From Halichondria panicea (taxonomy: Eukaryota > Porifera > Demospongiae > Suberitida > Halichondriidae), in assembly GCF_963675165.1 (NCBI RefSeq), contig NC_087379.1, positions 4,729,442-4,793,441 of the forward strand: a stretch of 64,000 bases of DNA, in the 5' to 3' direction. The translations under genes and the position numbers were made by a program. The notes below the pieces were generated by a model. That model worked only from the letters and a program-made list of their open reading frames with translations, did not search any database and was not told where the DNA came from. Of this stretch, positions 3,574-56,048 are shown piece after piece (positions within the stretch are counted from its first letter, which is position 1; the number at the start of each line of letters is the position of its first letter).

Positions 3574-4719
3574 TAATAATGAAAATAAAAATTGTAATTA
3601 GCTGAAAGAAGTAACAAATAACCTAAGTCTTAGGTCACACTGTCCACATAAACATGCATGACTTAGAACAAATATCACAGCACAAGCAATTGAAACCGAG
3701 ATCAACATGTTTGTAATTGTCGGAAAAGACTATCCCTTCTACAATCTGTAGTGTTTGAAGCATATTCTTTAATCTCATTATCAACTTAATGGTAAATTCT
3801 TGCCTTCAAAAGGGTTACACGTGATGGTTTACCATCTCGACCTGCTCTACCAGTCTCTTGTACATAGCTACTGATATCATCTGGCAGGCCAACATGAATG
3901 ATTTGCCGAATGTTGGGACAATCAACACCCATGCCAAATGCCATAGTAGCTACAACAATGCGAAGATTGCCATCACCCTTAAATAAACGAATGATTTCAG
4001 ATTTATGGGCTGGATCAGTGACACTTGTAAACATGTCCACGAGGCGAAATTCAGGAAGATCGGGTGCATCATCAGGATTTGTGAATACAGCTCCAAGGTA
4101 ATCCTTAAAGAAGAGGTACATGTCACCACACACTCCAAAAGAACGTCTATATATGATTGTTTTGGGAAACTTGTTTCTCTCGATTACCAATTTCTGGGCC
4201 AAGTTTTGGAATGTCTCTGGTATACTTTTGAACAATCCAACAGCATAAATCAAATTTGGGATTACTGGGACTCTCGTAATGACAAATGGGTTTCTTAGGC
4301 CAACAATACGAGAAATGAATGAAATGTCACTTCGGGTAGCTGTTGCTGTTAGTGCCATCACATGAGCTGATGTTGGAATGAGGCTGCGCACTTCTCCAAT
4401 TCTCACAGCATTTGCCTGAAAGTCTCACCCCTGCAATAATATTAATATTATTGGTACACATGTTAATAGAAAACGATGAGTCAAATACATACCATTTCTT
4501 CACACAATGAGCTTCATCGATTATCAAAGCCTTGAGTCTATTAGCATACACATCTCCCCCCAGAAGCCTTCTCCAATGCTTCTTGCTGATGATCATTTCA
4601 GGTGTAAAGAATACTAGCTGGTACTTTCCGTGGAAGATCGCATCCATTGTAGCTGCATCAGACATCTCGCCCGAGACATATGTGCTAGAGATGCCTTTAG
4701 AACAATAGATGGCTACCTA

Positions 4720-10059: not shown

Positions 10060-12713
10060 AAGCGCCCAAAATGATCAGCCCAACCCCGTTCACACGGAAG
10101 CATCTACGTCTGTCTCTCCTAGGGAGTCTACTCAGCTTGATAATTCAGAACATACTGACCCCAATCCAGGTACGCCACCTGAAGCTAGTCAGCAGGACTG
10201 ACCATCAGCAAATTGCCAATTCAACCTTATAAATGTGCGCAGTCTTGTGAACAAATTAGTCAATTTTCAATCGTTTATTTACTCATCCCTTCCTGACATT
10301 ATTGGTGTTACCGAGACCTGGCTGAACGATTCAATTATGAATAACGAAATATTGCCGTATGATTATTCCATCTATCGTAAGGACAGGGGGACTAGAGGAG
10401 GCGGAGTTCTACTTGCAATTCATAACTCAATTCCAACTAAGCTCATTGCCTCCCCCTCCAATCTAGAACTAATCGCCGTCGAATTAATCCAAATGAAATG
10501 TACTGTATGACTGTACTGTTTATCTTCCCCCTAATGTGGATCTTGATATTTTTACCAACACTCTATCATTTCTCATTCAATTGGCCAGGGAGTGTAATAT
10601 CTTAATCATTGGAGACTTTAATCGCCCAGACATAAATTGGTCTCTACTCTCAGGTTCCACTATCATGTCTAATCTTTTCTGTGATTTTGTTTTCGATTGT
10701 GACCTCACCCAGTTAGTCACTGTGCCTACCCATAATAGGGGAAACTGTATTGATTTATAGTCCTGTCATCAACTCCAGAAGCCGTTGGCTTGTTGAGTGT
10801 CTCCCCCAATGCACTATTATGTTCAGATCATTACCTAATCTCATTTCAGTTCTCAGCCAATGCCAGGCCAACTACTCCTGTTGCTAAGTGCCGCTATGTT
10901 CTTGACTATTCGAAACTAGACTATGAATGCTTGATGGTCTATTTGCTTAACTATGATTTCTCTTTGTGTATGAATTGTACGGATGTTGAGGCAGTTTGGT
11001 GTAATCTCCAATCGATCATTAACAATGCTATAAGTCAATTCGCACCTCTGGTCAAGCTTAAGGCAAACAAGAATTATCCAAAGTGGTACAATTATACCAC
11101 AAGGCATCTTATTCACCGTGTCCGCTCGTCCAGGAAGAAGGCCAGGCTTAATGGGTCTGTGTCAAACATATCTAAACTGGAGACTAACGAAAAAGAACTG
11201 TGTGATCATATGGAAATCTCAAAGTCAATATATGAAGCACAACTTGTTGAGGAGTTTGCCCACAATAACAGCAACAAAATCTACAAATACTATTCTGCAC
11301 AACAACAGCCTACCTGTAGCAATGCATCTTAATTCTCACACTGCCACATCTGATGCAGATAAAGCTTCTCTCTTTAATGAGTATTTCGAATCCGTCTACT
11401 CCAAGCCCACTTCTAATGCCTCCCATACCCACACTCTCTGTTCAGGAACCTCTGTTCTGAATAATATTGCCCTCTCAGATACTAAAGTATACACAGCCCT
11501 CTCAAGTTTGGATCCCTTCAAAGCCTCAGGAACTGACTGTATAGGTCCTAGGATACTAAAAACATGTTCCCTTGCTCTTTACCCAGTGGTAGATCATCTG
11601 TTTAAAATGAGCCTGGCTAGCTGCAAGCTCCCAAAGGAGTGGAAATTACACTGTATTATCCCAATATTTAAGTCTGGGGACAAAAGCCTTATTTCAAACT
11701 ACAGACTGATCTCCCTTCTATGCTCGATCTCTAAAGTTCTTGAAAGGATTGTGTATGATAAGGTGTTTGGGTTCATTGGCCAATCAATATCGAAATCTCA
11801 ATATGGATTCCTGAGAGACCACTCATGTCTGCAACAATTATTGTCTTTTTTGTCATGCGTTGAAAAGTCCCTAGAAAGTAGATGCCAGCACGACACGATA
11901 TATCTTGATTTCCAAAAAGCTTTTGATAGAGTACCCCATAAGGAACTTCTCTTCAAACTCCATGATCTGGGGATTACCGGCGCACTATGGAGATGGTTTA
12001 AAGAATACCTTACTTCTAGATGGCAAATGGTATCTATCAATGGTCACCACTCAACTCTCCTACCGGTATCTTCTGGAGTTCCGCAAGGAAGCATCCTTGG
12101 GCCTATGCTTTTCCTGGTTTATATCAATGATCTTCCTCTTTGGATTAACTTCTCTAATATTCATATCTTTGCAGATGATACCAAATGCTCTCATCAGATT
12201 AAATCAACCTCAGATACAATTGAACTACAATCGGACCTTGATATGCTGAATGATTGGAGCAACAAATGGAACCTCTCTTTTAATTCTCAAAAATGTGTGT
12301 TGTTGAAATTCTATAAAAACCCCTCACTCTTTATGAACTCATCTTACTTCCTTTCGGGGAGGCAGATCTCACCAAAGGAGAGTCACAGAGACCTGGGGAT
12401 AATACTGCAACAGGATCTGGGCTGGCACAAGCATTATGACAGCATTTCTGCTAAGGCATACAGACAACTAGGTTTACTCCGCCGTACTTTCTCATCTTCC
12501 AACTCAGTATATACCAAGAAGAAGCTATACCTGTCACTGGTTCGCTCACAGCTGTTGTATTGCTCACAACTTTGAAGACCAATGCTAGTCAAAGATACTG
12601 AAGCTCTGGAGCGTATTCAGAAGAGAGCAACAAAGTTTATCCTAGGCAACTCTGATGGTGACTACAAGGAAAGACTAGTGAAGTTAAAGTTACTTCCTCT
12701 GATGTACTCCTTC
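10060..12713 (+). mobile_element. Non-LTR retrotransposon (LINE), 5' and central part, frameshifted
   Basis: Successive frames encode an apurinic-type endonuclease and a reverse transcriptase. The endonuclease covers 10212-10760 with INVRSLVNK, IIGVTETWL and IIGDFN, broken near 10505. Reverse transcriptase spans about 11330-12575. It contains ISNYRLISLLCSISKVLERI, YLDFQKAFDRVPH, SSGVPQGSILGPMLF and the catalytic FADD box (IFADDTK). A further fragment to 12707 includes ALERIQKRATKFILG. The jockey/CR1-like style is inferred from these blocks. Frameshifts at about 10505, 10760 and 11330 and a stop at 12573 make this copy dead. Its sequence is interrupted exactly at 12713 and resumes at 21212. 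Confidence 0.88.
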
Positions 12714-12739
12714 TATGGAAAGGTATTAGAGTCAAAATT

Positions 12740-12994
12740 CCCAGCCTGTTTGTCCCAGTAAATGTCCCGGTGTTTGTCCCAGTAAACGTCCCGGTAAAGG
12801 TCCCGGTACACGTCCCGGTACGCCCTTTTCCTGTGGGCAAGGTCGACCAGCCTCCCAAATTTGGGGTGTGGTTGTCACAGCCCAGCAATTACTGCTGCAT
12901 CCGATCCAGTTTTGTGCCCCGGCAAGTGTCCCGGTATGTGTCCCGGTAAGTGTCCCAGTATGTGCACCAGTAAGTGTCCCGGTATGTGTCCCGG
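12740..12994. repeat. 12-bp minisatellite in the outer element's left terminal region
   Basis: Units such as GGTAAATGTCCC and GGTATGTGTCCC repeat with a 12-bp period on both sides of a ~90-bp unique core (CAGCCTCCCAAATTTGGGG and neighbours). The reverse complement occurs at 20918-21180. Confidence 0.9.
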
Positions 12995-13029
12995 TATGTG
13001 ACCCGGCTATGGAAGGGTATTAGAGTCAA

Positions 13030-13350
13030 AATTCCCAGCCTTTTTGTCCCAGTAAATGTCCCGGTGTTTGTCCCAGTAAACGTCCCGGTAAATGTCCCAG
13101 TACGTGTCCCGGTACGCCTTTTTCCTGTGGGCGAGGTCGACCAGCCTCCCAAATTTGAGGTGTGGTCGTCACAGCCCAGCAATTACTGTTGCATCCGCTC
13201 CAGTTTCTTGCCCCGGCAAGTGTCCCGGTATGTGTCCCGGCAAGTGTCCCGGTATGTGTCCCGGCAAGTGCCCCGGCATGTGTCCCGGCAAGTGCCCCGG
13301 CATGTGTCCCGGCAAGTGCCCCGGCAAGTGTCCCAGTACAGTATTGCCAT
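13030..13350. repeat. Left terminal minisatellite of the inner transposon
   Basis: Two 12-bp-period arrays (GGTAAATGTCCC-like outside, GGCAAGTGTCCC/GGCATGTGTCCC-like inside) flank a unique core at about 13115-13205. The inverted counterpart is at about 19868-20140. Frames through this array are open only because the period is a multiple of three. Confidence 0.9.
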
Positions 13351-13426
13351 GAATAAATGCGGCGCAATCCCACGTGTGATTTTTGGGAGTGGTCACTAGG
13401 TGCTCTTTATTAAAAATCTAAAAGCA

Positions 13427-14937
13427 ATGATGGCAAGAAGAAGTAGCAGGCGCCCTTCAACTTACAACGTTCAGTCTATTCTTGAAAGAGTTAGTTTAGT
13501 GATTAGTGATGTTCTGGCAGCTGTCAGGGATTCCTCTGTGGAGGAACAGTCACATGGTTTACACTTGCGTTTGTCTGAAGCTCAAAGACAAATTGAACCT
13601 CTGTCTGAGGTGATTGGATCACACATACACCAAGAAATTACAAGTTCTTTGTCTGAAATGTTATCTATTCTATCGAGGCTCAGAGACAGCAGAAACTACC
13701 CGTACAGATCAAGTACTGTACGTGAAGGTATGTTGTAGTAAACGTATGACCACGTGTACATGTTAATAAAATTATGATTCCCTTGTTAATACTGTGTACT
13801 GTACTATTTGTAGGACAGAGGGGCAGGCCTTCAGTCGTCATATCTCGTCACCAGCTGGAAACTTTACTTGGGTTAAACTTCACTGTTCCCCAAATGGCCG
13901 AGCTGTTAGGAGTATCTGTTTCAACTTTGACAAGAAGATTACGTAACTACGGACTAAGTGTAAGGCAGATGTACTCGGACATCACTGATACACAGCTGAA
14001 TGAACTAGTGTCGAGGATAAACCATCAATTTCCAAGTGCTGGGTACAGAATCGGCTCAAGTTTGCTCCAAGGTATGGGACACAGAGTCCCTGAACGACGA
14101 GTCAGGGAGTCTATGCGACTTGTCGACCCAATATCAGTGGCGTACAGGCACAGTAGACGAGGTACTGTTGATCGACGCAGGTACAATGTACCATATCCTA
14201 ATGCTATGTGGCATGTGGATGGAAACATGAGTTTGATACGCTGGGGGTTTGTAGTGCATGGTGCAGTGGATGGTTACAGTCGACTCATTACCTACCTACA
14301 TTGCTCTACAAACAACTATGCAGAAACTGTTTTCAGTCAATTTATAACAGCTGGAGAACGATTTGGTTTCCCATCAAGAACGAGATCAGATATGGGTGGA
14401 GAGAATGTAGATTTAGCACACTTTATGGTATTGTTAAGAGGTGAAGGTCGTGGAAGTCATCTTACTGGTCGATCTATTCACAACCAAAGAATTGAACGCT
14501 TATGGCGAGATGTATTTGCAGATAGTTTGAGTTTGTTCTACCATCTTTTCTATTTTATGGAAAGCAGAGGAATACTAGACTGTGAAAACCCCGAACATTT
14601 GAATGCTTTACATTATGTGTATACACCTCGTATCAACGACAGCTTGCAAATGTTTTCTTCTGCTTGGAATATTCATCCTATAAGAACAGAACGAAATTTA
14701 ACTCCAATGCAATTGTGGGTGACTGGAATGATGCAGAATTTTGGCTCTAATCATTTACCAATTCGTGAACTGTTGAGTCATGAATCTAATGAGCTTAATG
14801 ACAGCACAGCATCTGAAAGTGAAAGTGAGAGTGAAGACTATTCACATAATTTGCATTCCACTGTTGATCCACTACAACATAGTGATGCCTGGGGTGTAGA
14901 TTTGTATGTTGATGCACTGTCCGTTCTGTCTAGCTAG
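13427..14937 (+). CDS. Integrase-core (DDE) transposase of the inner transposon
   Basis: There are two exons, 13427-13727 and 13814-14937 (donor GAAG|GTATGT, acceptor TTGTAG|GACAG), giving about 474 residues. Exon 1 (100 residues, MMARRSSRRP start) is helical with no known domain. Exon 2 opens with a helix-turn-helix region (MAELLGVSVSTLTRRLRNYG, residues ~128-147), as in IS3-type transposases. The integrase fold follows. Its acidic triad is visible as WHVDG (Asp ~236), RSDMGGEN (Asp ~293) and NQRIERLWRD (Glu ~328). The last two are 35 residues apart, the classic DD35E spacing. A serine/glutamate-rich acidic tail follows (ASESESESED). The frame is intact, so the enzyme may be functional. It should cut and join the TATGGAAGGG ends. 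It is convergent with the HECT-like gene at 16220-19757. Confidence 0.88.
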
Positions 14938-16219
14938 TTGATAAACATTTTGATGTTCAAGTCAATAATTATGTTAGTATAATTATGCTTAATATGTCAG
15001 TATGCTTCTTTAATCATCATTATGAACATAAGAGTGCCATGGGTAATGGATGGGCCATGATTGTTGCTAGACCATGCTTGCGCATGCGCACCGAAGCATA
15101 ATTACTGTTATGAAAAACACATAATTATGCCTCGAGGCGTAGCCGCACGAGGGATACGGTAAAGCTGACTGTGTGTGTGTCTGTCTGTGTGTGTGTGTGT
15201 GTGTATTCCAGCTATAACTGCTCAACGGTTGCAATGCGACGAAAACTAACAGCTTCTATAGGCTTCTAGCCACGTTCTCTTGGATTTTGATTCGTGGATT
15301 AGCAAACTAAAGCTTCTTTCTCGAGTTATGGCTAGTTTGACTCACATTGAAGGCTGTTGCAGTCTCTTCAGAATCTTTCATAGCATCATCTGTCCGCACA
15401 AACTTTCTATTCAACATATGAGTTAGCCTTGCACTAAAGCGCTAGCTTTTTGTTAGCTACAAGACTCAGAAAATACCTGTTAAAACAGCTAGCTAGCAGT
15501 AGCCATTTGTGAAATTGATCTCTTTGGACACACCCTTTAATTATTCCTATGGATGTAATGCGCATGCGCGCTCATTCCCCAGATCCAGATCCTCCTGGCA
15601 GAATCACATTTTTCTTGAGGGCCTGGTAAGCCACAAAACACTACTATAGATAACAATATGCATGTACACAAGTCTTTTCTTCTTAAATATTATAATTATA
15701 CACTGCATGAACTACAGATCCAATTTTCTTCTTTCTTGAGGTCCTGGTATTAAAGCCACATAATACAACAATAGATGCATGTAATAAGTCTTTTCTTCTC
15801 AGTGACTTTATATAGATAAGCTAACTTTATGAAATAATTATGCACTTCCGCTTATAATTAATTGAAAACAAAATCTTCTTCTTTGTTGCTTCCTAGATCC
15901 TTGAGGTCCTGGTATAAGCAGCCACAAAACACAACAATGATACCATAATTATACAATTGCAAGTCAGTTTTAGACAGATTATTTTATACACTTTTTCCTC
16001 TTCTATACTTTCTCTTCTATACTTTTGAGCGAAAGCAAATCATGGCGAGAGGCATTAGCACAGCGCCAGCTTGAACACTAGTTATAACATGAATGAACAT
16101 GTTCTGAAAAACACATGAAATGAACAGGTAGATGAATGAAATGAACAGGTAGATGAATGAGCATATATATATATATATACATTGTAAGAGCATGGCAATG
16201 GCAACATGTCAATAATTAG
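14938..16219. other. Spacer between the two convergent transposon genes
   Basis: This non-coding stretch includes a GT microsatellite (about 15170-15205) inside a dispersed repeat (about 15040-15500) shared with 32190-32720 and, inverted, 36430-36720 and 44906-45450. It also has three diverged copies of a ~130-bp unit around TCTTGAGGTCCTGGTA (15600-15920) and an AT dinucleotide run near 16162. No gene seen. Confidence 0.6.
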
Positions 16220-19200
16220 TTACATGGCATCAAAGAACCAAGAAGCTGTGTTATTCAGGAGAGAGGAAAATTCGTTGGAAAATGTAGCATACGACTCATA
16301 TGTGACAGGCAGATGAAGCACAGTTGAGCAAGTGTTTGACGTAGGCCTACGAGAAAAACCTGTGAGCTGGTTGAAATTGACTAGGATTTTCTTGTGAGAA
16401 CACACAGAAAAACCTGTAACGAAGCTAAGAAAATGGGCAAGCATTTCAGGGGCAAGGGAATTAATGAAACGTCGAAGAAAATCAAAAGTTGCATCTTCTC
16501 GTAAGTTGGTAATGGTAGGCTCCTCAATCATCGCCAAAACACGAGGGACAGACGGCTGAAGAGCATCATACAAATGATCGACAACTTGTGGACTAAATCT
16601 CTTCCACACACTGGGGTGTGCATCCAACATTCCTCGTCTGATCTCACACAAAGCGTAGAAGGGCTTTGTTACAAGTACATGCCAAGCAGCTTGCTTAAGC
16701 AAAGAATTCAAAGTATCGACAGTAGGAATAGCAAAAACATTGAACCTACTTAACATAGGGGTTATAACGGTTTTCAGAGCCTCTTCGTTTGGAGCTTTTA
16801 CTGCTTGCACTTCGAACGGGTCAATAAATCTTGAAAAAGACTTCCGGAGCTCTTCATCACAAATCACACTCTGTCCACAAATTATGATCTTTACTGAAAC
16901 AATGGACAGATTAATCGGGAAATATCCAGTCATAACGTATCCATGAGAAATAAATCTCCCAATATGGTAGAAGGTCGACTGGTTATTTGGCAGTACTTGA
17001 GGCACATGGTCCAGGGCACCATCCATTAAAGCGCCATATTCGGTCCAAAAGCAGTTGCATAGCTCTCGTCTTAATCCACCACCGTCAACGCCACGCTCCA
17101 TCAAAAACTTCACCTTCAATTCCATGTTGTGGAGGTTGGGATGACTGGAATACGCATTGATTACACTACTAACGACTTCGTGGCGATGTGTGTGCAGAAA
17201 GTGCACTCCATTGTCTAGTAAATGCGATCTCACACTTGCTCGTTGTTCATCAACGTTAGACAATCGACTGAAATGTACATACATGTAAAACAGCTATTAT
17301 GGAAAATGTAATAGCCTTGCCTGTTGGTAGTGTCAACGTCAGTTAAATCAATCACCACACTTCCCATCTCCACCTCAACCTCCTACATAGAAGAAGATGA
17401 TTTTTATTATTGGAAATATACTGAGTATATAATTTTTTATATACCCACATTTACTGGTGAATCTGCTCGCAGAAAAACAACACTCTCTAACCTCTCTCTA
17501 TCTGTTTGAGTCAAGGGAGGGGTGGTAGGTAACTGGTTCAACTTCAACTTCAGTAACCTACACGTACAGAGCACAATAAAAAAAATTTGGCAAAGGCTAA
17601 TCGTGATCATACTCTGTTTTCGCCAATGAGAACTATGAATGCCGAAAGTCCCAGCTGTGAGATGGGTCCAGTACCAGTAGTGGGAAGTTCAGTCGGAACA
17701 GGACCATCGCTGACAAGAACCCGAAATTGACGGGGATTGATTGATTCATGCGAACCAACAAAGGAGCGGATAGCCTAGTTTAAAAAAATCACAAAAAAGC
17801 ATCAGGAAATTAATTTTAGGTGTGACGAGATACATGCACACAAAATTATTCACTACACTTACATTAATTGGATCAGACAATAAAAATTGCCTAGAATTTC
17901 TAGATCCATCAGGAAATCTGATTCTCGTGTGTAACACTCCCATCGTGCCAGGAGGAGGCTCAGCTGGAACTCTGTCCGCCAGATCTCTGCGAATTCTCCG
18001 ATGCCACTATACACATGTGTACATGTACATAATTTTAAACAAATTTTAAACAACCACAATCATATTATGCATACCTCAACCACTCGTCTTTGTCTTTCAA
18101 CAGACACCACTTGCTCAATTTTCTGATCCATTTCATCATCCTCAGTCATTTGACGGGATATCAACCTCTGTCGATCCTAAAAATTAATAATAATAATCAC
18201 ACACACAAAACACAGAATGAATACCTTTTCACGGTCAACACGCAAGCTAATGTCATAGGCCTGATCTTGCTCAGCAATTATTTCTCTGGACTGCAATTAT
18301 TAATTTTCATGAAAACTAACCGTAACACAATAATTTACATTAGTCACTAAGTAACGAACACATCCAGAAACTCACAACCATCAAAGATTCTCTCTCCTGA
18401 GAAGGCGACCGCGATTGTTCCTCTTCTGTGTCCATTTCTCCTGTATCCATTTGCTCATAAAGGTGATCTAATCGCAAGAAATTAATCTAGTTAACAGTAA
18501 TAGAGTATGTAATAGTTACTGCACCATAATTATAATCAGCCAGACTTCCTCTCACACCAGAAGAAGGCTCGGTGGCACTTCCACTTGCACTGGGAGGAGG
18601 CTCGGTCACACTTCCTCTCACACTGGGAGGAGGCTCAGTGGCAGTCTCACTGAGAGGCTCGACGGCACTTCCTCTCACACTGGGAGGAGGCTCGGTGGCA
18701 GTCTCACTGAGAGGCTCGACGGCACTTCCTCTCATACCACTTCCTCTCACACTGAGAGGAGGCTCGGTGGCAGTCTCACTGAGAGCACTTCCTCTCACAC
18801 CACTTCCTCTCACACTGGGAGGAGGCTCAGTGGCAGTCTCACTGAGAGGCTCGGTGGCACTTTCAGTGCACACATACATATGGTCTGTAATTTCAGACAT
18901 CCTAAGGCTTCTATTACATTTGTAGCAATCACGTCTGCTGGCTGGTGTGTAGGCCTATATTGTGAGTACAATATCCATAACTTTATAATAAAAACAAAAA
19001 CCACAGAATGAGATTGATGTACAGTAAATCATACCTGAAGTTGTGATACACGTACTCCCACTAGAGTAGACAACGGGCGAATATATAAACGACCTTTTCT
19101 GCCCACAGCTTCCTTCAGCATTTTTACGGTGAAATATGGTTTGAAAGGTCTCACGGACTCCATCTCGGGAGAATAACTGGTATCATTTACGTGTAGGGGA

Positions 19201-19757
19201 ACAATCACTTTGTTACCAAGGCCGGCTGCTCTACAAAACTGGTAGGGGATACCAGCCATCATTGGATACAGGCACAGTATCAAGAAATGTAGCTCTTCAG
19301 CATTAACAAAGTCTAATTCCAGTGGGTCCTCATCTCTCGTAAACCATAACGTTCCAAGGCCATCTCGACAAAGGTAGTCTAGCTCAATTTTACTTGGTAC
19401 TTGATGTGTTGATGGTCCAGCTAGGCAACATGGTACAATTTTCCAGCATCCTGGAGCTTTCCTTTGCTTAGGAGCTCGAGCAGAATTCGATCGTCCCAAA
19501 AAAGGAAATCTGTCACTAAGCTCCCTGGGTCGACTTGAGTTACCTACAACACTTAAACCCCTTCTCACTGCCACATTCAATCTGTCTGAGGCAGATGACA
19601 GTCCGCTTGAAGGAAATCTTTTAGATCTAGCAGGTTCTGCAATGAAATCGTCATCCGATGAATCAGTAGCAGTAGCAGTAGTAGCACCTTCTGCAATTGA
19701 TTGTAGAAGTCTAGAAGAGGCGAGACGCTTTCTTTTGGGTTTATTCAAACTCAGCAT
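16220..19757 (-). CDS. Transposon-borne UBX / SIM-like / HECT-like ubiquitin ligase protein
   Basis: Ten exons are read on the minus strand: 19757-19035, 18954-18525, 18467-18376, 18290-18225, 18176-18075, 18006-17863, 17774-17614, 17557-17534, 17382-17321 and 17267-16220. Phases match throughout and give about 950 residues. The N-terminal exon is basic and Ser-rich, then folded. Exon 2 has tandem ETATEPPPSVRGS-like repeats. Exons 4-5 read REIIAEQDQAYDISLRVDRE, very like the helix before the UBX domain in FAF1/FAF2 proteins. Exons 6-7 form a UBX domain (VLHTRIRFPDGSRNSRQFLL ... LGLSAFIVLIGE, residues ~485-573). Exon 9 carries VVIDLTDVD, a canonical SUMO-interaction motif. Exon 10 is a HECT-like domain ending SNTCSTVLHLP, which keeps the catalytic-type Cys (~915). 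Tentative points are the GC donor after exon 9, the weak donor of exon 2 and the 24-nt exon 8. It may act in ubiquitin/SUMO control of transposition or host factors; that is inference. Confidence 0.8.
18570..18865. repeat. Coding minisatellite in exon 2 of the UBX/HECT-like gene
   Basis: Imperfect tandem units containing CTCTCACACTGGGAGGAGGC and GTGGCAGTCTCACTGAGAGG encode the TATEPPPSVRGS / EPLSE repeats on the minus strand. Unit lengths are multiples of three, so the frame is kept. Confidence 0.85.
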
Positions 19758-19867
19758 CCTACATGTAAACACAATTTATTCTTTATCTATAAGCTGCCAC
19801 GAGGCAATCACTTCAGTGCGCATGCGCAGCGCAATATTATAAATCAGTGCTGTGTTATTCTGGGAAG

Positions 19868-20140
19868 TGCCATTTGCCGGGGCACATACCGGAACACTTG
19901 CCGGGACACATACCGGGACACTTGCCGGGGCACTTGCCGGGACACATACCGGGACACTTGCCGGGGCAAGAAACTGGAGCGGATGCAACAGTAATTGCTG
20001 GGCTGTGACGACCACACCTCAAATTTGGGAGGCTGGTCGACCTCGCCCACAGGAAAAAGGCGTACCGGGACATGTACTGGGACGTTTACCGGGACATTTA
20101 CCGGGACAAACACTGGGACAAATACTGGGACAAAAGCTGG
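19868..20140. repeat. Right terminal minisatellite of the inner transposon
   Basis: This is the inverted counterpart of 13030-13350: GGGACACTTGCC-type 12-bp units, a unique core with CAGTAATTGCTGGGCTGTG, then GGGACATTTACC-type units up to the TIR end at 20167. Confidence 0.9.
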
Positions 20141-20269
20141 GAATTTTGACTCTAATACCCTTCCATACCCGGCATGTGTCCCGGCACATGTCCCAGTACC
20201 AGAATAAAAATTGCGACAAGTTAACTCATGGAATGCGCATGCGCAATGGAAGTGAATGCCTCGTGCCAT

Positions 20270-20445
20270 AAAAGAGAGCCTTGTGGAGGCTAAGAAGATA
20301 CGAAGAACCTAGCCTTGTGAGGCTACAAAAATGCAGCCTTGTGAGGGGCTAAGAAGACAAAGACTTGTGAGGCTAAGAAAACACTAAGAACCTAGCCATG
20401 TGAGGCTACAAAAATGCAGCCTTGTGAGGGGCTAAGAAGACCCAA
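20270..20445. repeat. Tandem repeat around GCCTTGTGAGG
   Basis: Repeated units built from CTAGCCTTGTGAGGCTAC, AAAATGCAGCCTTGTGAGGG and GCTAAGAAGAC occur at least twice in full, inside the outer element's internal region. No coding sense was found. Confidence 0.8.
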
Positions 20446-20917
20446 ACTTCTGATTTGATTTTACACATAAACTTATGACTGTTGTTTATGTTTTGTCTCA
20501 AGAGGATCGAGGGTTGTAGTGAGGCAGCTGCCTATTATACAAGACCACTCCCTTTTTAGTCATGTAAAACGGATAATTATACACAAAATATGAAGCCAGT
20601 GTTAAATTTAAAGTTAATAGATTGGAGTACAAAGGAGTATGAAACAGCACTTGAAATGGGTGGTATTAAAGTTGTTCTACTTGGTGTTCCTCTTCATAGA
20701 AGTTACTCCAGGACTTGCTGCACTAATCTATGTGTATAGATGTACGTCAGTGTCTTCACTTCTACTGTACTGTCACATACATCATACTGTACTGTCATGC
20801 ACATACATCAAGACACTAATTATTATAAATTATATAATGCACACTAGGCTAATCACTCCCTAAACTCTAAAGTGTATTGCCTCGAATAAATACCGCATGA
20901 AGTTTTGCGTTTTATTC
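20446..20917. other. Internal DNA of the outer non-autonomous element
   Basis: No gene is seen. It contains a short direct repeat around CATACATCATACTGTACTGTC (20775-20805) and AT-rich sequence. Confidence 0.5.
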
Positions 20918-21180
20918 ACTGGGACACATACCGGGACACTTACTGGGACACATACCGGGACACTTACTGGGACACATACCGGGACACTTACTGGGACACA
21001 TACCAGGACACTTTCTGGGGCAAAGAACTGAAGCAGATGCAGCAGTAATTGCTGGGCTGTGACGACCACACCCTAAATTTGGGAGGCTGGGTCGACCTCG
21101 CCCACAGAAAAAAGGCATTACCGGGACGTGTGCCGGGACATTTACCGGGACAAACACCGGGACATTTACTGGGACAAAAG
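20918..21180. repeat. Right terminal minisatellite of the outer element
   Basis: Four GGGACACATACC / GGGACACTTACT pairs precede the unique core and a second 12-bp array. It is the inverted counterpart of 12740-12994. Confidence 0.9.
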
Positions 21181-21211
21181 CTGGGAATTTTGACTCTAAT
21201 ACCCTTCCATA

Positions 21212-21729
21212 TCCTTCGAGCTGGCAGAAATAATGTTCTTTGTTAACTCATTTAAAAACAAAACTAATCGCTTCTGCATTACTGATTTCGTCTCAATATC
21301 CTGTTCTAACACAAGGTCATCTGACAAGCTCACCCTCCGACACACCAGATCAAGCCACAATCAACACCGTCATTTCTATTTTAACCGTCTGCCCAGACTG
21401 TGGAACTGCCTACCGGCCATTGATATGTCACTATCATCTCAATGCATAAAGACACTGATCAAGCAATTTCTATGGTCCCACTTTGTAACTCATTTCGACC
21501 CCTACAACATATGTTCCTTTCATTTTCTCTGTCCCTGCAGTAGATGCTCCACAATGCATATGATTAGTGTTCATTTGTGAATCGCTTGTTCTCTATAATC
21601 TTTCTCACACGGCAATCTGACTAGTTTCAGATTAGCCTTCAGCTGTCCACTCACTATATTGTCCTGTTTTTTTTTTGTAATCACCTGTATGTATGCTGAG
21701 AAACCATAATTATTATTATTATTATTATA
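21212..21729 (+). mobile_element. 3' end of the interrupted LINE with (ATT)n tail
   Basis: The translation resumes exactly where the LINE stopped at 12713 (ELAEIMFFVNSFKN). It reaches the C-terminal block FNRLPRLWNCLPAIDMSL ... CPCSRC, typical of jockey/CR1-like ORF2 ends. The element finishes in a short ATT microsatellite at about 21715-21728, a usual LINE tail. Confidence 0.85.
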
Positions 21730-29427: not shown

Positions 29428-30829
29428 TGTAGGTATCAAAACACCTGAATTATACTGAGAAAGAGGTTTGCCCATACAGCGTCTTGTAATTAACTAGAAA
29501 TCCATGCAATGCGACGTGCTGTCAATCACGTTAGAATCTATACATGTGTGTTTGTTCAACTGAGCCAGTCCCTTATATATAGGTAAGGCATGACTGTCTG
29601 GTGCATGTATTTATGGGCTGGGGACTCTTTAAGTTCATTGCCTTTATCGCTAACATAATGAATTTTAGTGGAAGTATATATTGGTTTTTTGCGAACGCAT
29701 GCACATTCTTCAACATGAAATCGCAGTGAGGTGAATCAATGCATCATGCATGTATAATAGCATGCACTAGCTGTTCATGCATGCATGGAGTTGTTGGCGA
29801 ATTACAGTTTTGGCATCAATACATTAATGACTTAGTGGAAGTGGTTTTACGAACATGCAGGTGGCCTAGGCAGAGTATAATCAGTAATCTGAGACCAATG
29901 GATTAATAACTCCTACACAGAAAATTCTGTAAACAGAAGGGATCACAACACCTGCATTGCTGGGAATGATATACTGGGCCATAATTATAATTATTAGAAA
30001 TATAATTATTGAGGACTTTGCTCTCATTTCTGGTGTGCCTGTATCACTATGGAGCAGGCCCCTCGGGCATTATGTCATCCAGTGCAATATTTGGCATATT
30101 TTGCAATAACTAACTTGTTGCCCAATGACGTCAAACTCTTCTGATTGGTCAATTTTTTTCTATAAATTTGAATGACATGTAGTTTTGCTGAATTCCATAG
30201 CAAATAATTAGTTTTGCTTCCGACAACTGGGAAGTAGCCGGCCTATAAAACAGACCAATTGAGTTATTGGGTGGGATGGTGAATGTAAGTAAAAAATAAG
30301 ATTTCATCCACTGCATTTACACACAATACAACATGCCACATAATTATTGCACTGCTATAATTATATAATTATGGTAGTGATGCAACATGCCATATACAGA
30401 GATAAGGATGAGTAATCAGTATAATCTGAGATCAATGGTGCACATATTAAATGATCGCCTATATACACAGTAAACAGAAGTGGATCACAACACCTGAATT
30501 ACTGGGAAAGAGGTCTGCCAACAGCGTCTTGTAATTAACTAGCAATGCGACATGCTGTCAATCACATTAGAATCTATACATGTGTGTTCATATGAATTAA
30601 CTGAGCAAGTTTCCATGCAGGTATACTGAGCTCACAGGACTATGCTCCCATTCTGTAGCAAGATTAACAAAGGATACACACATTCGGTATAGTAGACGTT
30701 TATTGTGCTGAGCCCTAGTTCACTATAGACCACAAAAAAAGAATTCATAAAATGATGTCTACATTTACCACTGCATCGTACAGCACGGAATTGAATTTAG
30801 CAGCTCGGATGTTCTTTTCCAATGCATTG

Positions 30830-31650
30830 CTTCCTACAGTTCCAAGGTTCCTAGGTTCCTACTGTTCCATGGTTCCAAGCGTTCCAAGGTTCCTACTGTT
30901 TCATGGTTCTTATACTGTTCCATGGTTCCATGGTTCCAAGGTTCCTACTGTTCTATGGTTCCTACTGTTCCATGGTTCCATGCATGGTTCCAAGGTTCCT
31001 ACTGTTCCATGGTTCCTACTGTTCCATGGTTCCAAGCGTTCCAAGGTTCCTACTGTTTCATGGTTCTTATACTGTTCCATGGTTCCTACTGTTCTATGGT
31101 TCCTACTGTTCCATGGTTCCAAGCGTTTCAAGGTTCCTACTGTTCCATATCGTTCCTACTGGTACCAGCGTTCCATTGTTCTCTTCGTTCCACTGTTCCC
31201 TTACTTTCTTTAAACAGTATAGGAGTCACGGAATGCTTGGAACAGTAGGAACCACATAGGAACCATGGAAGGCTTGGAACTATAGAACAGTAGGAACCAC
31301 ATGGAACGCTTGGAACTATAGAACAGTAGGAACCATGGAACGCTTGGAACTATGGAACAGTAGGAACCATGGAACAGTAATAATCATGGAACGCTTGGAA
31401 CTATGGAACAGCGAACCATGGAACAGTAAGAACCATGGAACAGTAAGAATCATGGAACGCTTGGAACCACGGAACACTTGGAACCGTGGGAACTATATGG
31501 AACAGTCCATGCATGGGAACCATGGAACACTTGGTACTATAGGTGGAACAGTAGGAACCATGGAACGCTTATAGAACCATGGAATAGTATATGGGAACCG
31601 TGGAACAGTAGGAAGCTTGGAACTATAGAATAGTAGGAATTATAGAACAG
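30830..31650. repeat. Palindromic minisatellite (inverted arrays of GGTTCCTACTGTTCCAT)
   Basis: From 30830 to about 31150, units such as GGTTCCTACTGTTCCATGG repeat. From about 31220 to 31650 the reverse complement (CCATGGAACAGTAGGAACC) repeats. A ~70-bp unlike centre separates them. The arms total about 400 bp each and could form a large hairpin. The frames open through it are repeat artefacts. Confidence 0.9.
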
Positions 31651-46347: not shown

Positions 46348-48114
46348 TTAGTCCTCTAGCTTTTCAAATTGTGCATAAAATCCTCTGAACGATCCTGGGG
46401 AAGACACCTCCAGAATCACAGTCAAGATACTTCCTATCCCTGGGACTATGTGATCGGTACACTTCTCTCCACACATCTTCTCAATCAATTGACCCTCACT
46501 TCTAAATCCATCGTACACCGCAACAGAATTAGACGAGCATTGCTCACTGTTGGGAATATCAAAATACTTGAAACAAACTTGGGCAGAACCGAAGGTAATC
46601 CAAGTGCATGAAATTGTACCAGTGATAGCGCCTGAGGGAAGATTAGCAGGTCCGAAACGTTGACCCATCGGCATGACTCCACCGCAAGCAAAGTTTCCTT
46701 GAGGGTTGGATAGTAAAACAGGGCAATTCGGAGTGGGTGGTGGTAGTGTAGTTGGGGCAATGGTGGTTGGAGGTGTAGGGGCTCTAGTAGTTGGCCTGGT
46801 GGTGGGTAGGGGAGTGGTTGGATCTGGTGATGTCGTGGCTACTGTAGTTGGCCTGGTGGTAGGTAGGGGAGTGGTTGGACCTGGTGATGTCGTGGCTACT
46901 GTAGTTGGCCTGGTGGTAGGCGGGGGAGTGCTTGGACAAACTATCGTGTACTCAATCCTGAATCCCGTACGTTTTGGTCCATGATATGGTCCAGCAAAGA
47001 AGTATAGTGTGGTATTGCCAGTTGCAGTGATGAGAGAAGGTCTACCAAGATCACAAATGGTGTGAATTAAGCCGGTAGTATCGTGGATCTTCAAATAATC
47101 TTTGGGACAGTTTTCAGTTGTTTTTCCAGCTATCCCAAAAGCTAAATCATCAAATGTGAGGCGAACATTGCATCCTGGAGAAGGAACTTGGATGTTCCAT
47201 TCACAGTTAAAATTTAAGGGATAGGTCGTGGGCCAGGCAGGTGTTTGGAAGCTTCCAGAGGCACCTGTGAAAAGACTTGGCCCACATATAGTAGCAGGTG
47301 TGGGGGGCTGTGTGGTCGGTGTTGTCATGGAAATTGTGGTCGTTCTGGTTGTGGGTGGAGGGACAGTAGTTGGAGTAGTAGGGGGAGCAACAGTTGGTGG
47401 GGCTGTATATGAAGTAATGTATTAGATCATAATTATAAAAGGATAGAAATGGTTTTTCTAAGGCATCTGTATAGCTTGTCTTATGTGTATAAAAATAATT
47501 TCTGCGAAACACGAACGAATGATCAAATGTGGGATCTCATTTGTTTACCGCCAACATATGCTAAACAGATCATTGTATAACTTATGTGTTCCCTCTATCC
47601 CACACACACCCACACTCATATGCATGGGAAATTGTATACTAGTGCCCACATGATCTGAAAACATGTACATATTTAGTAATGTCCCTAGCTTACATAGTAA
47701 TGAAAAATACTTGTGGTGACTTACCAGTAGGTGTTATTGTGCAGCTCAGACCATCTGCTTGTAGATAGTAGCCAGAATAATTATATTACATTTGCATATA
47801 TAAGAGCCTCCAGTGTTGTCACAAATATGATCACATCCTCCATTATCGTATGCACACTCATTGAAATCTGCACGAAAACAAGTGTTTGTGTACATAATCA
47901 TGACACTCACATATGCATGTGTTGAGGTAGGCAATTCGAGTTAAATGCTATTATTATAGCCTCTGAGAACATTGGAGCTGCATTATTGACTTACCAAAGC
48001 AAGTACTTGCTGCTGGAGAGTGATAGTATCCATTTTTACATTCACAGCGGTACGATCCATCAAGATTTGTGCATGTGTGACATCTGTTTGATTGGCCACG
48101 ACACTCATTGACGT
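46348..48114 (-). pseudogene. Duplicated 3' half of astacin gene A (EGF-EGF-CUB-CUB), frameshifted
   Basis: Three exons copy the last three exons of gene A in order: EGF (48114-47995), EGF (about 47869-47725) and the terminal double-CUB exon with Thr/Pro linkers (about 47401-46348). The nucleotide match extends into introns and about 240 bases past the stop. The first EGF and the double-CUB exon are open. The second EGF exon has an 8-base insertion (AATAATTATATTAC in place of GATTAC on the + strand, near 47775) that destroys its frame after ICKCN. No astacin, signal peptide or first CUB exists for this copy. It could still serve as an alternative 3' end of gene A that skips the broken exon, but a dead partial duplicate is more likely. 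Confidence 0.8.
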
Positions 48115-49195
48115 CTGTAGTCAATGATGCACATGCATGGTAGGTTAATTATACATGCATAAGCATTATATAACTATAGAGAATTATGACTACAGTGCAT
48201 CCAGTCTAGAGAGTAGAATACAAAAATAGATGAGTAGTTGTACTTAAATGTATCTGAAGATTTAAACATTTCTAAGAAATTGTGCTGATACCATTGTATA
48301 TAGGTAAAAGAATAAGCTACAACATGATTCAAAAATATTTCCCCAAAAGTTGTTGTAGTGGGAAATAATTTTAGATGGGGGTGATCGTAAAAAAAATTTG
48401 CGTAACATCAATTATCTCCGGAACTAAAGTATTTCTGGAAAAATTTTTCTTATCAAAAGTCAGACAATTTATTCAAGCTTACTCCGTTAGACCTTAGCCG
48501 TAAGATTTTATTCAAATCTCTCCCTAACCGAAACGGCACTAAAAACTAGCACGGAAGATGTGTAGATATTTAAGTAACATTGAATCTTTCTTAAGATAGC
48601 CAAACTATCTATAGATGGTGTGACAAAGTTCCAAACCTTAGCCGGAAACCGTTGGCCTTTTCTCTCCCTAACCGATTACCCACTATAACAATTGGGTACT
48701 GTTTTATTAATCACCACAAACCCACTACCTTATGTTGTCATGGAAACAATTTTGGATATGTTGTAGCTTATTCATTCGCCTACACAATGGTATCAGCAGA
48801 TTTTCTTTAAAATGTTCCAATCATAAGATATTTACATTTAAGTATACAACTACTCACACATTTTTAGTATTCTACTCTTTAGACTGGATGCCTTCTCCTT
48901 TTTAAAGTATCTATGCATGTTTTTATAATACAGTCATTATGCATTACCTAATTTGGAGAACACAGCAGTTTAGCATACCTAGAACTATACTGAAATCTGA
49001 AAGGTGAACACCGCTCATCTGATTTTAAATCTATTTGTTGAGCATAGGTCTTCTCGTCTCCTCCATCCTCTGCCTGATCGATGCCACCTCTTTCACGTTC
49101 ATTATTGCTGATCTTGCCAAAATGAAACCATGTGTTAATTTGTGCATGTGCTAATTATTGCAGTTTATAATTATGATGTCAAAACTAATTATATA

Positions 49196-49414
49196 CCGTA
49201 TAGCGCGAAATTTTCGTGGAATGGACTCTAAAAGCATTTCCTTAAGCACTAGAATGACTGCTTACTAGAAGCCACGCCTTTAAATCTTTGCCGCGGCACG
49301 TTATAGCAGATAATTCTAATTAAAGAACAATTTTCGTGGACTTTATTTTCGTGTAGGATTGCTATCCCACGAAATCAGCGAAAATAAGCACCTCGAAAAT
49401 TTTGCATTATACAG
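49196..49414. mobile_element. CCGTATA-family MITE, shared with the duplicated segment
   Basis: CCGTATAGCGCGAAATTTTC left end, decayed right end (TTTTGCATTATACAG), flanked by TA. The copy at 55834-56048 sits at the homologous position of the segmental duplicate. Confidence 0.8.
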
Positions 49415-49755
49415 TAGTACATATAGGGTCACCAAATACTGAATCGAAATGACTTCAAGGCTAAGTAACTATATCCAGCATTGAATCAAAATAAGGATAA
49501 TGACGCCCTTGATCCCTCATCCGGAAGTGAATCAGTGTGCCGAGAACTATTATCTGATGTGTTTTGAGTCTGTTCAATTGCAATTTCACACTTCCATGTA
49601 GCCTCCTCACAAGGTGCTCTGACAGGTATATAGATTTATTGCTTTTCTTTTTACAAATGAGCAGTTGTAAACATTATACAAGGTGTTCGTACATGCAGTT
49701 CACAGACTCCTATACTGTGGAAATTGTACGTCAGTTTGAAACCAGTTCTGCTGCA

Positions 49756-49886
49756 TAATCTCATGAATCAGCCTGCCTTGGAGAGTTGGAGAGACTCTCC
49801 AAGGTCGGCTGATTCATGAGATTACGCCTGCCTTGGAGAGTTAATTGGAGATACTCTCCAAGGCCGGCTGATTCATGAGACTACAT
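49756..49886. repeat. Hairpin element around CTGCCTTGGAGAGT
   Basis: TAATCTCATGAATCAGCC ... GGCTGATTCATGAGATTA forms a ~68-bp near-perfect hairpin (49756-49823), followed by a second partial copy of the same stem to about 49886. Probably a tiny foldback MITE with tandem growth. Confidence 0.75.
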
Positions 49887-51023
49887 GGATGGAAACTCAC
49901 GGCAGTCGTGTGGAGGGACAAAACAAAAGGCACGGTTTTTTTCCAGGTATGGTTTCCTTCACTAAATCAATCGGACGTCCTTTGAGACTGTTGTCCTCCA
50001 AGCAAAAAATTAATTCGTGTTGTTCCACAAACATAGCTATGACAATGAATGCTGTGAAACGAATAAACCATTCCGGTCAATAGCCAGTTGGTAGATTGGC
50101 ATTTACCACTTCGGTTTGTACGTTACTTAGAAGTGTAGGTATAGTGAGACTAGAGGAAACTACGGTAGTAGGACGAGAGGTGCATGGGTCTAGTGATGTT
50201 GTCGTGGCAACTGTAGTTGGCCTGGTGATGGATGGGGGAGTAGTTGGACGTGGTGTTGTCGTGGCTACTGCACATGAAGTTGGTCTAGTGTTGGGTGAAG
50301 GAGTGTATGATCATACTGCATGTCATATGTACTCAAGTCCCTTATACACAGAGGTCCATTCACGAGTTGGTGTCTCGTAATAATCCTTGTTTCTGACAAC
50401 ACAGTCATAATAGCTACTGTGTTGAGCTTTATCTTGGTGAAGAGGGATTCTAGACAGGCTAGACAAATTATCTAGAGACAGGCTCCTAGCTATAGGCAAC
50501 AAATAGTTACATAGTTGTTACAGACAAATTGACTTCACGGTGTATAACCAGATCGAGAAACAAAAACATCAACTGGCAGGCAAAGTGAAGTGAGGCAAAA
50601 AGGTGAATACATGCATGAACGGAGGCCCAGAAGCTCGCACAACAACAAATTAAAGGGAGATGGGGAGCATTACAATTAAAAAAGAAAAAGTATGATAATA
50701 TTTATCCCTATTGAGTATCTATGATGATATCAACGTCATCAAATTAATTATAAAAAATAATTATAAGGTACTTAGTCTACTAACATAGTCCTCGACCATA
50801 ATTTTACAGAGCTTTGCTTGCATGTCTGTCTCCTGCATGCCTTATATATTTATGCATGTACAAACCTTCTCACCCAAAAATTGAGCTCCCAACTAGAAAC
50901 ATATTAGTACTATGACACTTTCAGTTAATTATTATAGGTAATCATGCATACTTTCAGTAATAATAATAATTGTTTGATCAACAAAAAATTAATGTGAATA
51001 TTGCAATGACAGAATACAGACTT

Positions 51024-54000
51024 TTAGTCCACTAGCTTTTCAAATTGTGCATAAAATCCTCTGAATGATCCTGGGGAAGACACCTCCAGAATCACAGTCA
51101 AGATACTTCCTATCCCTGGGACTATGTGATCGGTACACTTCTCTCCACACATCTTCTCAATCAATTGACCCTCACTTCCAAATCCATCGTACACCGCAAC
51201 AGAATTAAACGAGCATTGCTCACTGTTGGGAATATCAAAATACTTGAAACGAACTTGGGCAGAACCGAAGGTAATCCAAGTGCATGAAATTGTACCAGTG
51301 ATAGGGCCTGAGGGAAGATTAGCAGGTCCGAAACGTTGACCCATCGGCATGAATCCACCGCAAGCAAAGTTTCCTTGAGGGTTGGATAGTAAAACAGGGC
51401 AATTTGGAGTGGGTGGTGGTAGTGTAGTTGGGGCAATGGTGGTTGGAGGTGTAGGGGGTCTAGTAGTTGGCCTGGTGGTGGGTAGGGGAGTGGTTGGGTC
51501 TGGTGATGTCGTGGCTACTGTAGTTGGCCTGGTGGTAGGTAGGGGAGTGGTTGGACAGACTATCGTGTACTCAATCCTGAATCCCGTACGTTTTGGTCCA
51601 TGATATGGTCCAGCAAAGAAGTATAGTCTGGTATTGCCAATTGCAGTGATGAGAGAAGGTCTACCAAGATCACAAATGGTGTGAATTAAGCCGGTAGTAT
51701 CATGGATCTTCAAATAATCTTTGGGACAGTTTTCAGTTGTTTTTCCAGCTATCCCAAAAGCTAAATCATCAAATGTGAGGCGAACATTGCATCCTGGAGA
51801 AGGAACTTGGATGTTCCATTCACAGTTAAAATTTAAGGGGTAGGTCGTGGGCCAGGCAGGTGTTTGGAAGCTTCCAGAGGCACCTGTGAAAAGACTTGGC
51901 CCACATATACTAGCAGGTGTGGGGGGCTGTGTGGTCGGTGTTGTCGTGGAAATTGTGGTCGTTCTGGTTGTGGGTGGAGGGACAGTAGTTGGAGTAGTAG
52001 GGGGAGCAACAGTTGGTGGGGCTGTATATGAAGTAATGTATTAGATCATAATTATAAAAGAATAGAAATGATTTTTCTAAGGCATCTGTATATAGCTGGT
52101 CTTATGTGTATAAAAATAATTTCTGCGAAACATGAACGAATGATCAAATGTGGGATCTCATTTGTTTACTGCCAACATATGCTAAACAGATCATTCTATA
52201 ACTTATGTGTTCTCTCTTTCCAACACACACCCACACTCATATGCATGGGAAATTGTTTTAGTGCCCACACGATCTGAAAACATGTACATATTTAGTAATG
52301 TCCCTAGCTCACATAGTAATGAAAAATACTTGTGGTGACTTACCAGTAGGTGGTGTTGTTGTGCAGCTCAGACCATCTGCTTGTAGGTAGTAGCCAGGAT
52401 TACATTTGCATATATAAGAGCCTCCAGTGTTGTCACAAATATGATCACATCCTCCATTATCGTATGCACACTCATTGAAATCTGCACGAAAACAAGTGTT
52501 TGTGTACATGATGATGACAATCACAGTTAGTGTTTATGCATGTGTTGAGGTAGGCTATTCGAGTTAAATGCTATTATTATAGCCTCTGAAAACATTAGAG
52601 CTGCATTATTCACTTACCAAAGCAAGTACTTGCTGCTGGAGAGTGATAGTATCCATTTTTACATTCACAGCGGTACAATCCGTCAAGATTTGTGCATGTG
52701 TGACATCTGTTTGATTGGCCACCACACTCATTGATGTCTGTAGTCAATTATGCACATGCATGGTAGGTTAAAATAATGTATACATCATAACTATAGAGAG
52801 TATAATTATGACCATGCAGGTAGGGATGCGGCGATTATGCGAGCATAATTTTGAGAATAATGAGTAGCTTGGAGCATTAGGAATTATGCGGGAATAAACG
52901 GTAGAGTGGGTGGAATAATTATGCCACGTGGCTAGCATTCTAAATAAAGCACAATTACTATTGTTATTGTACTCTAGCTCTGATCTGATCTCTGGGCTAG
53001 ACTGCAGCTAGCTAGCTAGCTAGCCTTACCGGTAAAGACAGACCATAGACAGTATAGTAGTACTTTATATGGAATCTGAAGAAAATCAAGAGATTACTGA
53101 ACCTACTGAAGCCAATTCCAGTTCCAACAAGTAGAGACATATCGATGTTGGATCAACTCAAGGCACTTCGTTTGGTGATCAGCAAGACAATGCTCTTCAG
53201 GACTATGTACATTATTATATCATTATGTAGAGACTTCCTTGTGTTGCAATTTATCAAAAGATGATTTTTATATGAAGAATAATGATTTTTTTATGAGAAT
53301 AATGGGCTAAATCACTGAGAATAATAGGCTATAGCTTGGGAATTGGAGAATAGAATAATCGGTAAAATTTGGAGCATAATAGCCTCAAGCCTACATGCAG
53401 GCCAGTCTAAATAATTATTGTGGTTTCGAATTCTGATTGTAGAATGCACTTCACTCCGTGCTATAGGATGGTAAATTTATGTTCTACATATCTACATACA
53501 GTCAAATTGTGTAAACCGCTAGCCAATTAAAGTACCTACCAATTGTTGAGAAGTCCACCTGAAGTCCCCGCGGTGTACCAGGTCCTGTGTTGCTACTATC
53601 AGTGTGGTAGTAGACAGTTGCTGTATTGTCATACACATAGTTTGAGGTGTATATCTGGCTAGAGCTGCAAAATTTGCCATCTCTAGCATTTCTTGAAAGA
53701 TATTCACCATCCTCAGGGTTTATAGATCGTCCAGTAAATACTTGGACATAGTCTTTAATGCACCCAGCACTGTAATTGGAGAGTGTATTTGATAAGAACA
53801 AAACGAGTAACTATCCATTCTAGAAGAACTGAAACACTAGATTGTAGCAAACCACAAACATCCATTAAGTGGGTATAATATGTCTGCTATGTCAATCAAA
53901 AGTAAAGAGCATACAGACAATGGAATTTATGAGTGTATATTATACACAGTAACGATTAATAGTTTTCTGGCAGCGAAGTTACCTCTGCTCTAGGCGGAGT

Positions 54001-55367: not shown

Positions 55368-55433
55368 TCTGTTTGTCTGTAGTGAGTTAGTAGTTCAGCT
55401 TTCTGGTTATTGGTTGACTACTAACCTGAGTTA

Positions 55434-55440
55434 TTTTATA
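55434..55440 (-). promoter_or_regulatory. TATA box of astacin gene A
   Basis: TATAAAA on the minus strand, 67 bases before the ATG. Confidence 0.55.
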
Positions 55441-55833
55441 GGATGGTAATCCTGGTATTGGAAGTTTGTGGTTTCTAAGTTTCCTGCTGCCCACGCAGTC
55501 TTGAGATCTGACACTGGTGACCTTAGACACAGGAAGAGTTGCTATGAAACTACACTAACATGATAATAGCCGTCTCCTTTTTAAGTATCTATGCATGTTT
55601 TGTCATTATGCATTACCTAATTTGGAGAGCACAGCGGTTTAGCATACCTTAAATCTGAAAGGTGAACACTACTCCGATTTTAGCTGAGCATAGGTCTATT
55701 AGGTTTTTCTCGTCTCCTCCCCTGCCTGATGCCACCTCTTTCACGCAGTATTGCTGATCTTGCCAAAATGAAGCCATGTGTTAATTTGTGCATGTGTATA
55801 AATTATATGCTGTTTATGATGTCAAAACTAATA

Positions 55834-56048
55834 CTGTATAGCGCGAAATTTTCGAGGCACTTCCTCTACATTGCACACAATTTTCGTAGAATGACTGCTT
55901 ACCAGAAGCCACGCCTTTAATCTCTTTGTACGTTATGCCAGATAAAAGAATAATTTTCGTGGACTGTATTTTCATGTAGGATTGCTAACCCACAAAATCA
56001 GCGAAAATTAAGCGCCTCGAAAATTTCGCGCTATAGCTACGTATACGG
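55834..56048. mobile_element. CCGTATA-family MITE, orthologous to the copy at 49196
   Basis: CTGTATAGCGCGAAATTTTC left end and GCGCTATAGCTACGTATACGG right end, with a short insertion near the right end. TA flanks both sides. Confidence 0.78.

Follow-up and report, generated by a model that had tools for sequence, protein, structure and literature searches.

Eukaryotic transposons of the IS3EU superfamily have TA..TA termini and usually 6-bp target site duplications, according to the accessible text of PMC10045372, and the rust-fungus families have TAYGG..CCRTA ends with TIRs over 30 bp, according to that of PMC12730594. The locus that we analysed, in a 64-kb stretch of DNA (hereafter the window), resembles IS3EU/GingerRoot elements by its 6-bp duplications, its TA..TA termini, its integrase-like DDE transposase and the opposite-strand position of its second gene. 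Unlike the TET-carrying IS3EU of fungi, where the available part of PMC12730594 describes an alpha-kinase on the opposite strand and TET/JBP between, the second gene is here of UBX-HECT type. An enzyme gene beside a transposase also recalls the accessory proteins of Kolobok (nucleases, RecQ helicase, KolX), none of which, among those named in the accessible part of PMC9587614, is a ubiquitin ligase. HECT or ubiquitin does not occur in the main text, as available, of the IS3EU papers PMC10045372, PMC12730594 and PMC9587614, and no transposon with a HECT-UBX gene was found in the titles and abstract openings searched.

The nearest relatives of the second gene product are of two kinds. It is like FAF1/FAF2 (UBXD8) in having a helix EQDxAYxxSL followed by a UBX, and unlike them in that a Pfam scan gives no UAS match, the FcisP touch-turn is absent and a HECT ligase comes after the UBX. 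It is like HECT E3 ligases (AREL1, TOM1, HUWE1, UBE3C) by a catalytic-type Cys in a TCxxxLxLP context and by the matching of both lobes (AREL1, TOM1, HUWE1), and unlike those known in being divergent, the whole protein barely exceeding the Pfam cut-off, and borne by a transposon. For FAF1/FAF2, the accessible texts of PMC13356908, PMC12965308 and PMC9377798 report that the helix which precedes the UBX serves as a brace for UT3, a domain of UFD1, and that helix plus UBX is enough for stimulation, UBX alone not. V507 and K508 of FAF1 were mutated together (PMC12965308, in the part available).

The transposon and its transposase

The element covers 7160 bp, from 13008 to 20167 (no strand assigned, as for the other repeats and duplications below), with termini TATGG..CCATA, hence the TA..TA of IS3EU/GingerRoot. 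Its flanking 6-mers are CCCGGC on both sides (left copy 13002..13007, right copy 20168..20173), a perfect target duplication of the 6 bp expected for that group. The inverted ends are identical in 227 of 236 aligned columns (ungapped arms: 261 nt, 93% complementary) and are followed by 12/24-bp GTCCCGG-type repeats. As far as termini can tell, the element agrees with the IS3EU superfamily; it is called IS3EU-like here by its termini, 6-bp duplications and DDE transposase.

This element sits inside another of the same type, whose left part (12714..13007) and right part (20174..21211) are split by the inner insertion, and whose own target duplication TCCTTC (12708-12713 and 21212-21217) is again a perfect 6 bp; the outer element is apparently non-autonomous. 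Because two successive insertions each left a perfect 6-bp duplication, the limits of the mobile unit are fixed. By inspection, the interval 12708-21217 appears as a nested IS3EU-like insertion pair within non-LTR retrotransposon-like sequence (frames 11034-12575 and about 21200-21580). When the outer flanks are joined they form one open frame, whose product by inspection resembles a non-LTR retrotransposon protein in its C-terminal part; this retrotransposon-like frame is already interrupted by a stop at 12575. Rfam gave no match over the whole 64-kb window.

The transposase is encoded on the plus strand by two exons that join without a stop. Exon 2 (13814..14937) holds an HTH-like region and the rva_4 integrase core, matched in Pfam at 3.6e-85, with the DDE triad in WHVDG, RSDMGG and NQRIERLW; the D, D and E are unchanged in all four aligned proteins, so that the triad of IS3EU/GingerRoot is present. 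Exon 1 (13427..13727) is inferred: it was placed by the ATG at 13427, the donor GTATGTTG and the phase, which agrees with exon 2, not by homology. Together with the gene described below, this makes the element a predicted eukaryotic cut-and-paste DNA transposon with two genes on opposite strands.

The accessory gene

The gene model runs on the minus strand from 19757 down to 16220: ten exons, whose phases agree, are read through without a stop to give a predicted protein of 975 aa. The nine introns measure 48-88 bp, eight being GT-AG and one GC-AG. Exon 1 (19035..19757, residues 1-241) has a basic N-terminus (KPKRKR) and gave no profile or PDB match. Exon 2 (18525..18954) encodes proline-rich tandem repeats (18540-18870; unit lengths include 33, 57 and 63 bp) as well as a CCHC-like finger at residues 251-270, and more than one donor site is possible for it. 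After an acidic linker in exon 3 (18376..18467), the FAF-like helix SREIIAEQDQAYDISLRVDREK (416-437) occupies exon 4 (18225..18290) and its remainder exon 5 (18075..18176); the UBX starts in exon 6 (17863..18006) and ends in exon 7 (17613..17774), where the place of the touch-turn is without Phe-Pro (LVSDGPVPTELP). Exon 8 (17449..17547) is a linker, exon 9 (17321..17382) encodes the SUMO-interaction-like pattern VVIDLTD (615-621) and has the GC donor, and exon 10 (16220..17267) encodes both lobes of the HECT with Cys940, the stop codon being at 16220-16222.

Joins 1/2, 2/3, 3/4, 7/8, 8/9 and 9/10 have phase and splice signals as their basis, and codon statistics favour the frame weakly and not in every exon. 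Structure predictions (pLDDT 35.6 for exon 10 and 34.5 for exon 1) were too poor for use. Two proposals of the sequence-only reading are thus upheld: the ten-exon phase-consistent frame runs uninterrupted through the 975-aa predicted protein, and the gene lies within a mobile element, between matched ends and target duplications.

A second locus with the same gene pair

For one symbiont bin, whose label Poecilosclerida names a sponge order, the 301 genomes of the bin's own order were searched with rva_4 and 72 had a match; the strong ones were those of this bin (1.3e-80) and of G162 (6.7e-76), the next best reaching 6.7e-10. A scan of genome contigs confirmed four loci. Three of them, L001-L003, are short contigs of the Poecilosclerida-labelled bin and are presumably sponge DNA; L004, a match of 20 residues (3e-5) on a contig apparently bacterial by inspection, was set aside. 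The informative locus is L030, an 8233-bp contig of the prokaryote genome G162 that stops inside the HECT gene, so that the ends of the element are not visible; its introns and genes suggest stray animal DNA within a prokaryote bin. Prokaryote bins with eukaryote-type transposon contigs (L001-L003, L030), probably host DNA, offer animal mobile elements by accident.

On L030 an rva_4 transposase lies tail-to-tail with a HECT frame 30% identical to that of the window (1.4e-42). We read the accessory gene there as eleven exons, by a manual phase-consistent choice with the 5' end missing, and the spliced accessory proteins of the window and L030 match by blastp at 4.7e-45. Upstream of the HECT, on the same strand, is the helix TRQIIKEQNELFEESLKIDKLK. 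The best match of the window helix exon in the whole contig falls at this place (tblastn 1.6e-4, 22 residues), none of 2000 shuffles scores as well as the comparison of the two helices, and the two helix exons share their end point in codon and phase (0). The next large exons, which end with FLLSDPIN within the UBX in the window and with LSVTSPAK on L030, were taken as corresponding. In the phase-keeping reading, the intron that precedes the HECT exon starts with a GC donor both in the window (17321) and on L030 (1794).

The UBX is less clearly shared. Directly compared, the window and L030 UBX segments show no likeness (1382 of 2000 local and 534 of 2000 global shuffles score as well), a Pfam scan of the L030 protein gives no UBX match, and a PDB search with its helix-UBX does not retrieve FAF1 (best: HMGB1 at 0.45, treated as chance). 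The L030 UBX-like segment nevertheless compares with the first half of the FAF1 UBX better than any of 2000 shuffles. No homology was found between the N-terminal parts of the window and L030 proteins.

The fusion, looked for beside integrase-core transposases as the sequence-only reading had proposed, is found again in that the transposase-HECT pair and the helix recur on L030. This gene pair and helix being present in both, helix and HECT would therefore be inherited cargo of this type of element, and the helix-HECT pairing next to the transposase is, from these comparisons, common to two long-diverged loci. Other searches were blank or narrow. The HECT profile (A2) matched only G162 among the 237 genomes of its family and the 369 of its class, G162 being counted in both. 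No HECT family was found in G001 and G002, but the HECT control matched 0 of 14 genomes, so that this blank is uninformative; no UBX family was found in G001, nor any match there to the window HECT exon, exon 1 or whole protein. Among the viral contigs scanned for relatives of the transposase or the HECT, none was confirmed.

The FAF-like helix and the UBX

The helix core EQDQAYDISLRVDREK, residues 422-437, lies in exon 4, and its pattern EQDxAYxxSLxxDRxK occurred in 0 of 20,000 shuffles of the accessory protein. Searched against solved structures, residues 416-573 match FAF1 at 1.4e-5 over the helix and the first half of the UBX. The FAF-like helix of the sequence-only reading is well supported by these two results. 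The window UBX alone finds no structure up to E 10; therefore the helix supplies much of the FAF1 score. Compared alone with FAF1, the window helix is equalled by 0 of 2000 (local) or 1 of 2000 (global) shuffles, and the L030 helix, more weakly, by 36 (local) or 98 (global) of 2000.

The UBX profile matches the 975-aa protein at 6.4e-7 (29.9 bits, Pfam cut-off 21) over residues 498-538, i.e. profile positions 9-49, 41 residues against 41, across the exon 6/7 junction. The proposed UBX is so far confirmed for its first half, and not for the second, for which the Pfam profile search of the protein gave no match. The FcisP touch-turn of the UBX is FAF1's grip on p97. We placed this turn in the window and L030 by the FAF1 residues that we take to form it: in the window it falls in residues 539-573, where there is no Phe-Pro, and the one Phe-Pro of the L030 UBX-like segment (CFPF) stands, in an alignment made by eye, just before a strand and not in the turn. 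Recruitment of p97 through the UBX, as the sequence-only reading stated it, did not hold up on this point.

By manual placing from the FAF1 alignment, the stretch with V507, K508 and S518 of FAF1 (VKREQDEAYRLS) corresponds to IIAEQDQAYDIS in the window and IIKEQNELFEES in L030; V507 falls on window Ile419, K508 on Ile420 and S518 on Ser430. The Ser is kept in the window and L030, and V507 and K508 are both Ile in each. Within the helix-UBX segment, the helix is the better-conserved part. Because the touch-turn is absent and the helix kept, we find a link of the accessory protein to UFD1 easier to credit than the usual UBX contact with p97.

The HECT domain

The whole accessory protein matches the HECT profile at 2.7e-5 (24.4 bits, Pfam cut-off 23.9) and exon 10 alone at 2.1e-6 (28.1 bits), so that the UBX and HECT scores both pass the Pfam cut-offs. 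Against solved structures exon 10 alone gave weak matches, an acyl-CoA hydrolase at 0.011 then the HECT ligase TOM1 at 0.024; the hydrolase (0.011) and a TRPM7 kinase (0.27) were treated as chance. A two-row profile built from the window and L030 HECT exons reached AREL1 at 1.6e-9, TOM1 at 1.3e-7 and HUWE1 at 1.5e-5, each in two stretches corresponding to both lobes. In the AREL1 alignment Cys940 of NTCSTVLHL falls in the column of the HTC cysteine (TAHTC), and its equivalent is kept in L030. The HECT call of the sequence-only reading, above the Pfam cut-off and strengthened by the AREL1 match, was right, and so was its remark on the retained Cys. Some HECT ligases need a Phe four residues from the end; this Phe is not conserved, the window protein ending in FDAM and that of L030 in MDAI. 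We conclude that the accessory gene encodes a predicted HECT ubiquitin ligase behind a FAF1/FAF2-type helix-UBX.

The SUMO-like motif and the finger

VVIDLTD, residues 615-621, is present as the sequence-only reading had noted. As a SUMO-interaction motif it convinces less: the pattern is short, a VIDLT-like pattern occurs in 333 of 20,000 shuffles, and its place is not conserved in L030, where the candidate SUMO-type pattern is a different one, VVVSSSSSDEE, located ahead of the helix. The motif is thus weak evidence for SUMO binding, and the extraction of SUMOylated complexes, suggested in the sequence-only reading, would be speculative.

The exon 2 finger, C251-C270, fits C-x2-C-x11-H-x3-C, which is the spacing of the UBZ ubiquitin-binding finger; C-x2-C-x(9-13)-H-x3-C occurs in 5 of 20,000 shuffles. 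It has no significant match (best Pfam 0.046, best PDB 0.36, the latter to Sgf73 and treated as chance), and no such CCHC finger was seen in L030.

Possible function of the accessory protein

We consider it very probable that the locus is a two-gene IS3EU-like transposon made of a DDE transposase and an opposite-strand helix-UBX-HECT accessory ligase. What the ligase does is more speculative. The HECT domain would ubiquitylate a protein bound by its N-terminal part or by the transposase complex; the helix would position UFD1, so that the ubiquitylated product might pass at once to p97-UFD1-NPL4, which would pull the client apart. The likeliest client could be a very stable protein-DNA complex of the element's life cycle, such as the strand-transfer complex, or a host silencing complex on its DNA. 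A remodelled strand-transfer complex would compare with the MuA transpososome, which ClpX remodels. Ubiquitylation of a partner and its handing over to p97-UFD1-NPL4 is the mechanism that we favour, as a tentative proposal, possible at best. The fuller version, a transposon-encoded ubiquitylate-and-extract device in which the HECT tags and a captured FAF helix-UBX strut docks the client on p97-UFD1-NPL4, dismantling transpososome or silencing complex as the ubiquitin counterpart of ClpX on MuA, is rather unlikely. For element identity and mechanism together, we would give our explanation an even chance.

Among the alternatives, the accessory protein could be a counter-silencing factor, the ligase marking host silencing or SUMO-dependent chromatin proteins and so keeping the element transcribed. 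TET/JBP genes in fungal transposons, IS3EU included, are proposed to aid the escape from methylation silencing (PMC12730594, in its accessible part), and SUMO-motif-like patterns exist in both the window and L030 proteins; the shortness of the motif and its non-conserved place speak against, and we regard this role as conceivable and doubtful. We have similar doubts about a passenger gene or decayed adaptor, i.e. an old FAF-like helix-UBX fusion where the HECT acts alone and the UBX is off p97. This would agree with a touch-turn seen in neither protein and with an L030 UBX unrecognised by Pfam. On the other hand the helix is kept while the HECT parts are only ~30% identical, which suggests selection on the helix.

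The gene itself could also be misread, as two genes or as exons joined by chance, all the more as joins 7/8, 8/9 and 9/10 come from phase and splice signals, exon 9 has a GC donor and the codon signal is weak. But on L030, with manually chosen exons, helix, UBX-like segment and HECT follow each other in this order on a single strand, and the helix exon and first UBX exon end there at matching places, which makes a wrong model improbable. HECT and UBX genes are common in hosts, so that an ordinary host gene could adjoin the transposase by chance. However, the ends that enclose this gene match, the target duplication at them is perfect, the whole has inserted into another element, and on L030 such a gene again adjoins a transposase of this type; a coincidence is very hard to believe.

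Under the transposon reading with an accessory ligase, a ubiquitin ligase with a p97-adaptor segment would be a further kind of cargo, beside the alpha-kinase and TET/JBP of fungal IS3EU. If the mechanism were true, it would suggest concretely how a eukaryotic transposon could free DNA of protein complexes, its own or the host's. The element would also be a natural test of how much of FAF1/FAF2 is minimally needed; the conserved helix is the part shown in two 2026 papers to position UFD1. The annotation 'G2/M phase-specific E3 ubiquitin-protein ligase-like' is given to large numbers of genes in many animal genomes. In Cottus, unclassified repeats match G2E3, a ubiquitin ligase (PMC5638112, in the text available), and from this match repeat libraries may already contain ubiquitin-ligase cargo of a related sort that has escaped notice.

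Elsewhere in the window

At 3786-4716 minus-strand frames look, by inspection, like a RecQ-type DNA helicase, apparently in pieces. The stretch 30719-31259 is repetitive, with three plus-strand frames open (FHGSKVPT-type units). From 46348 to 59977, CUB-like and astacin-like frames are repeated on the minus strand, an arrangement that, by inspection, resembles a tandem gene family.
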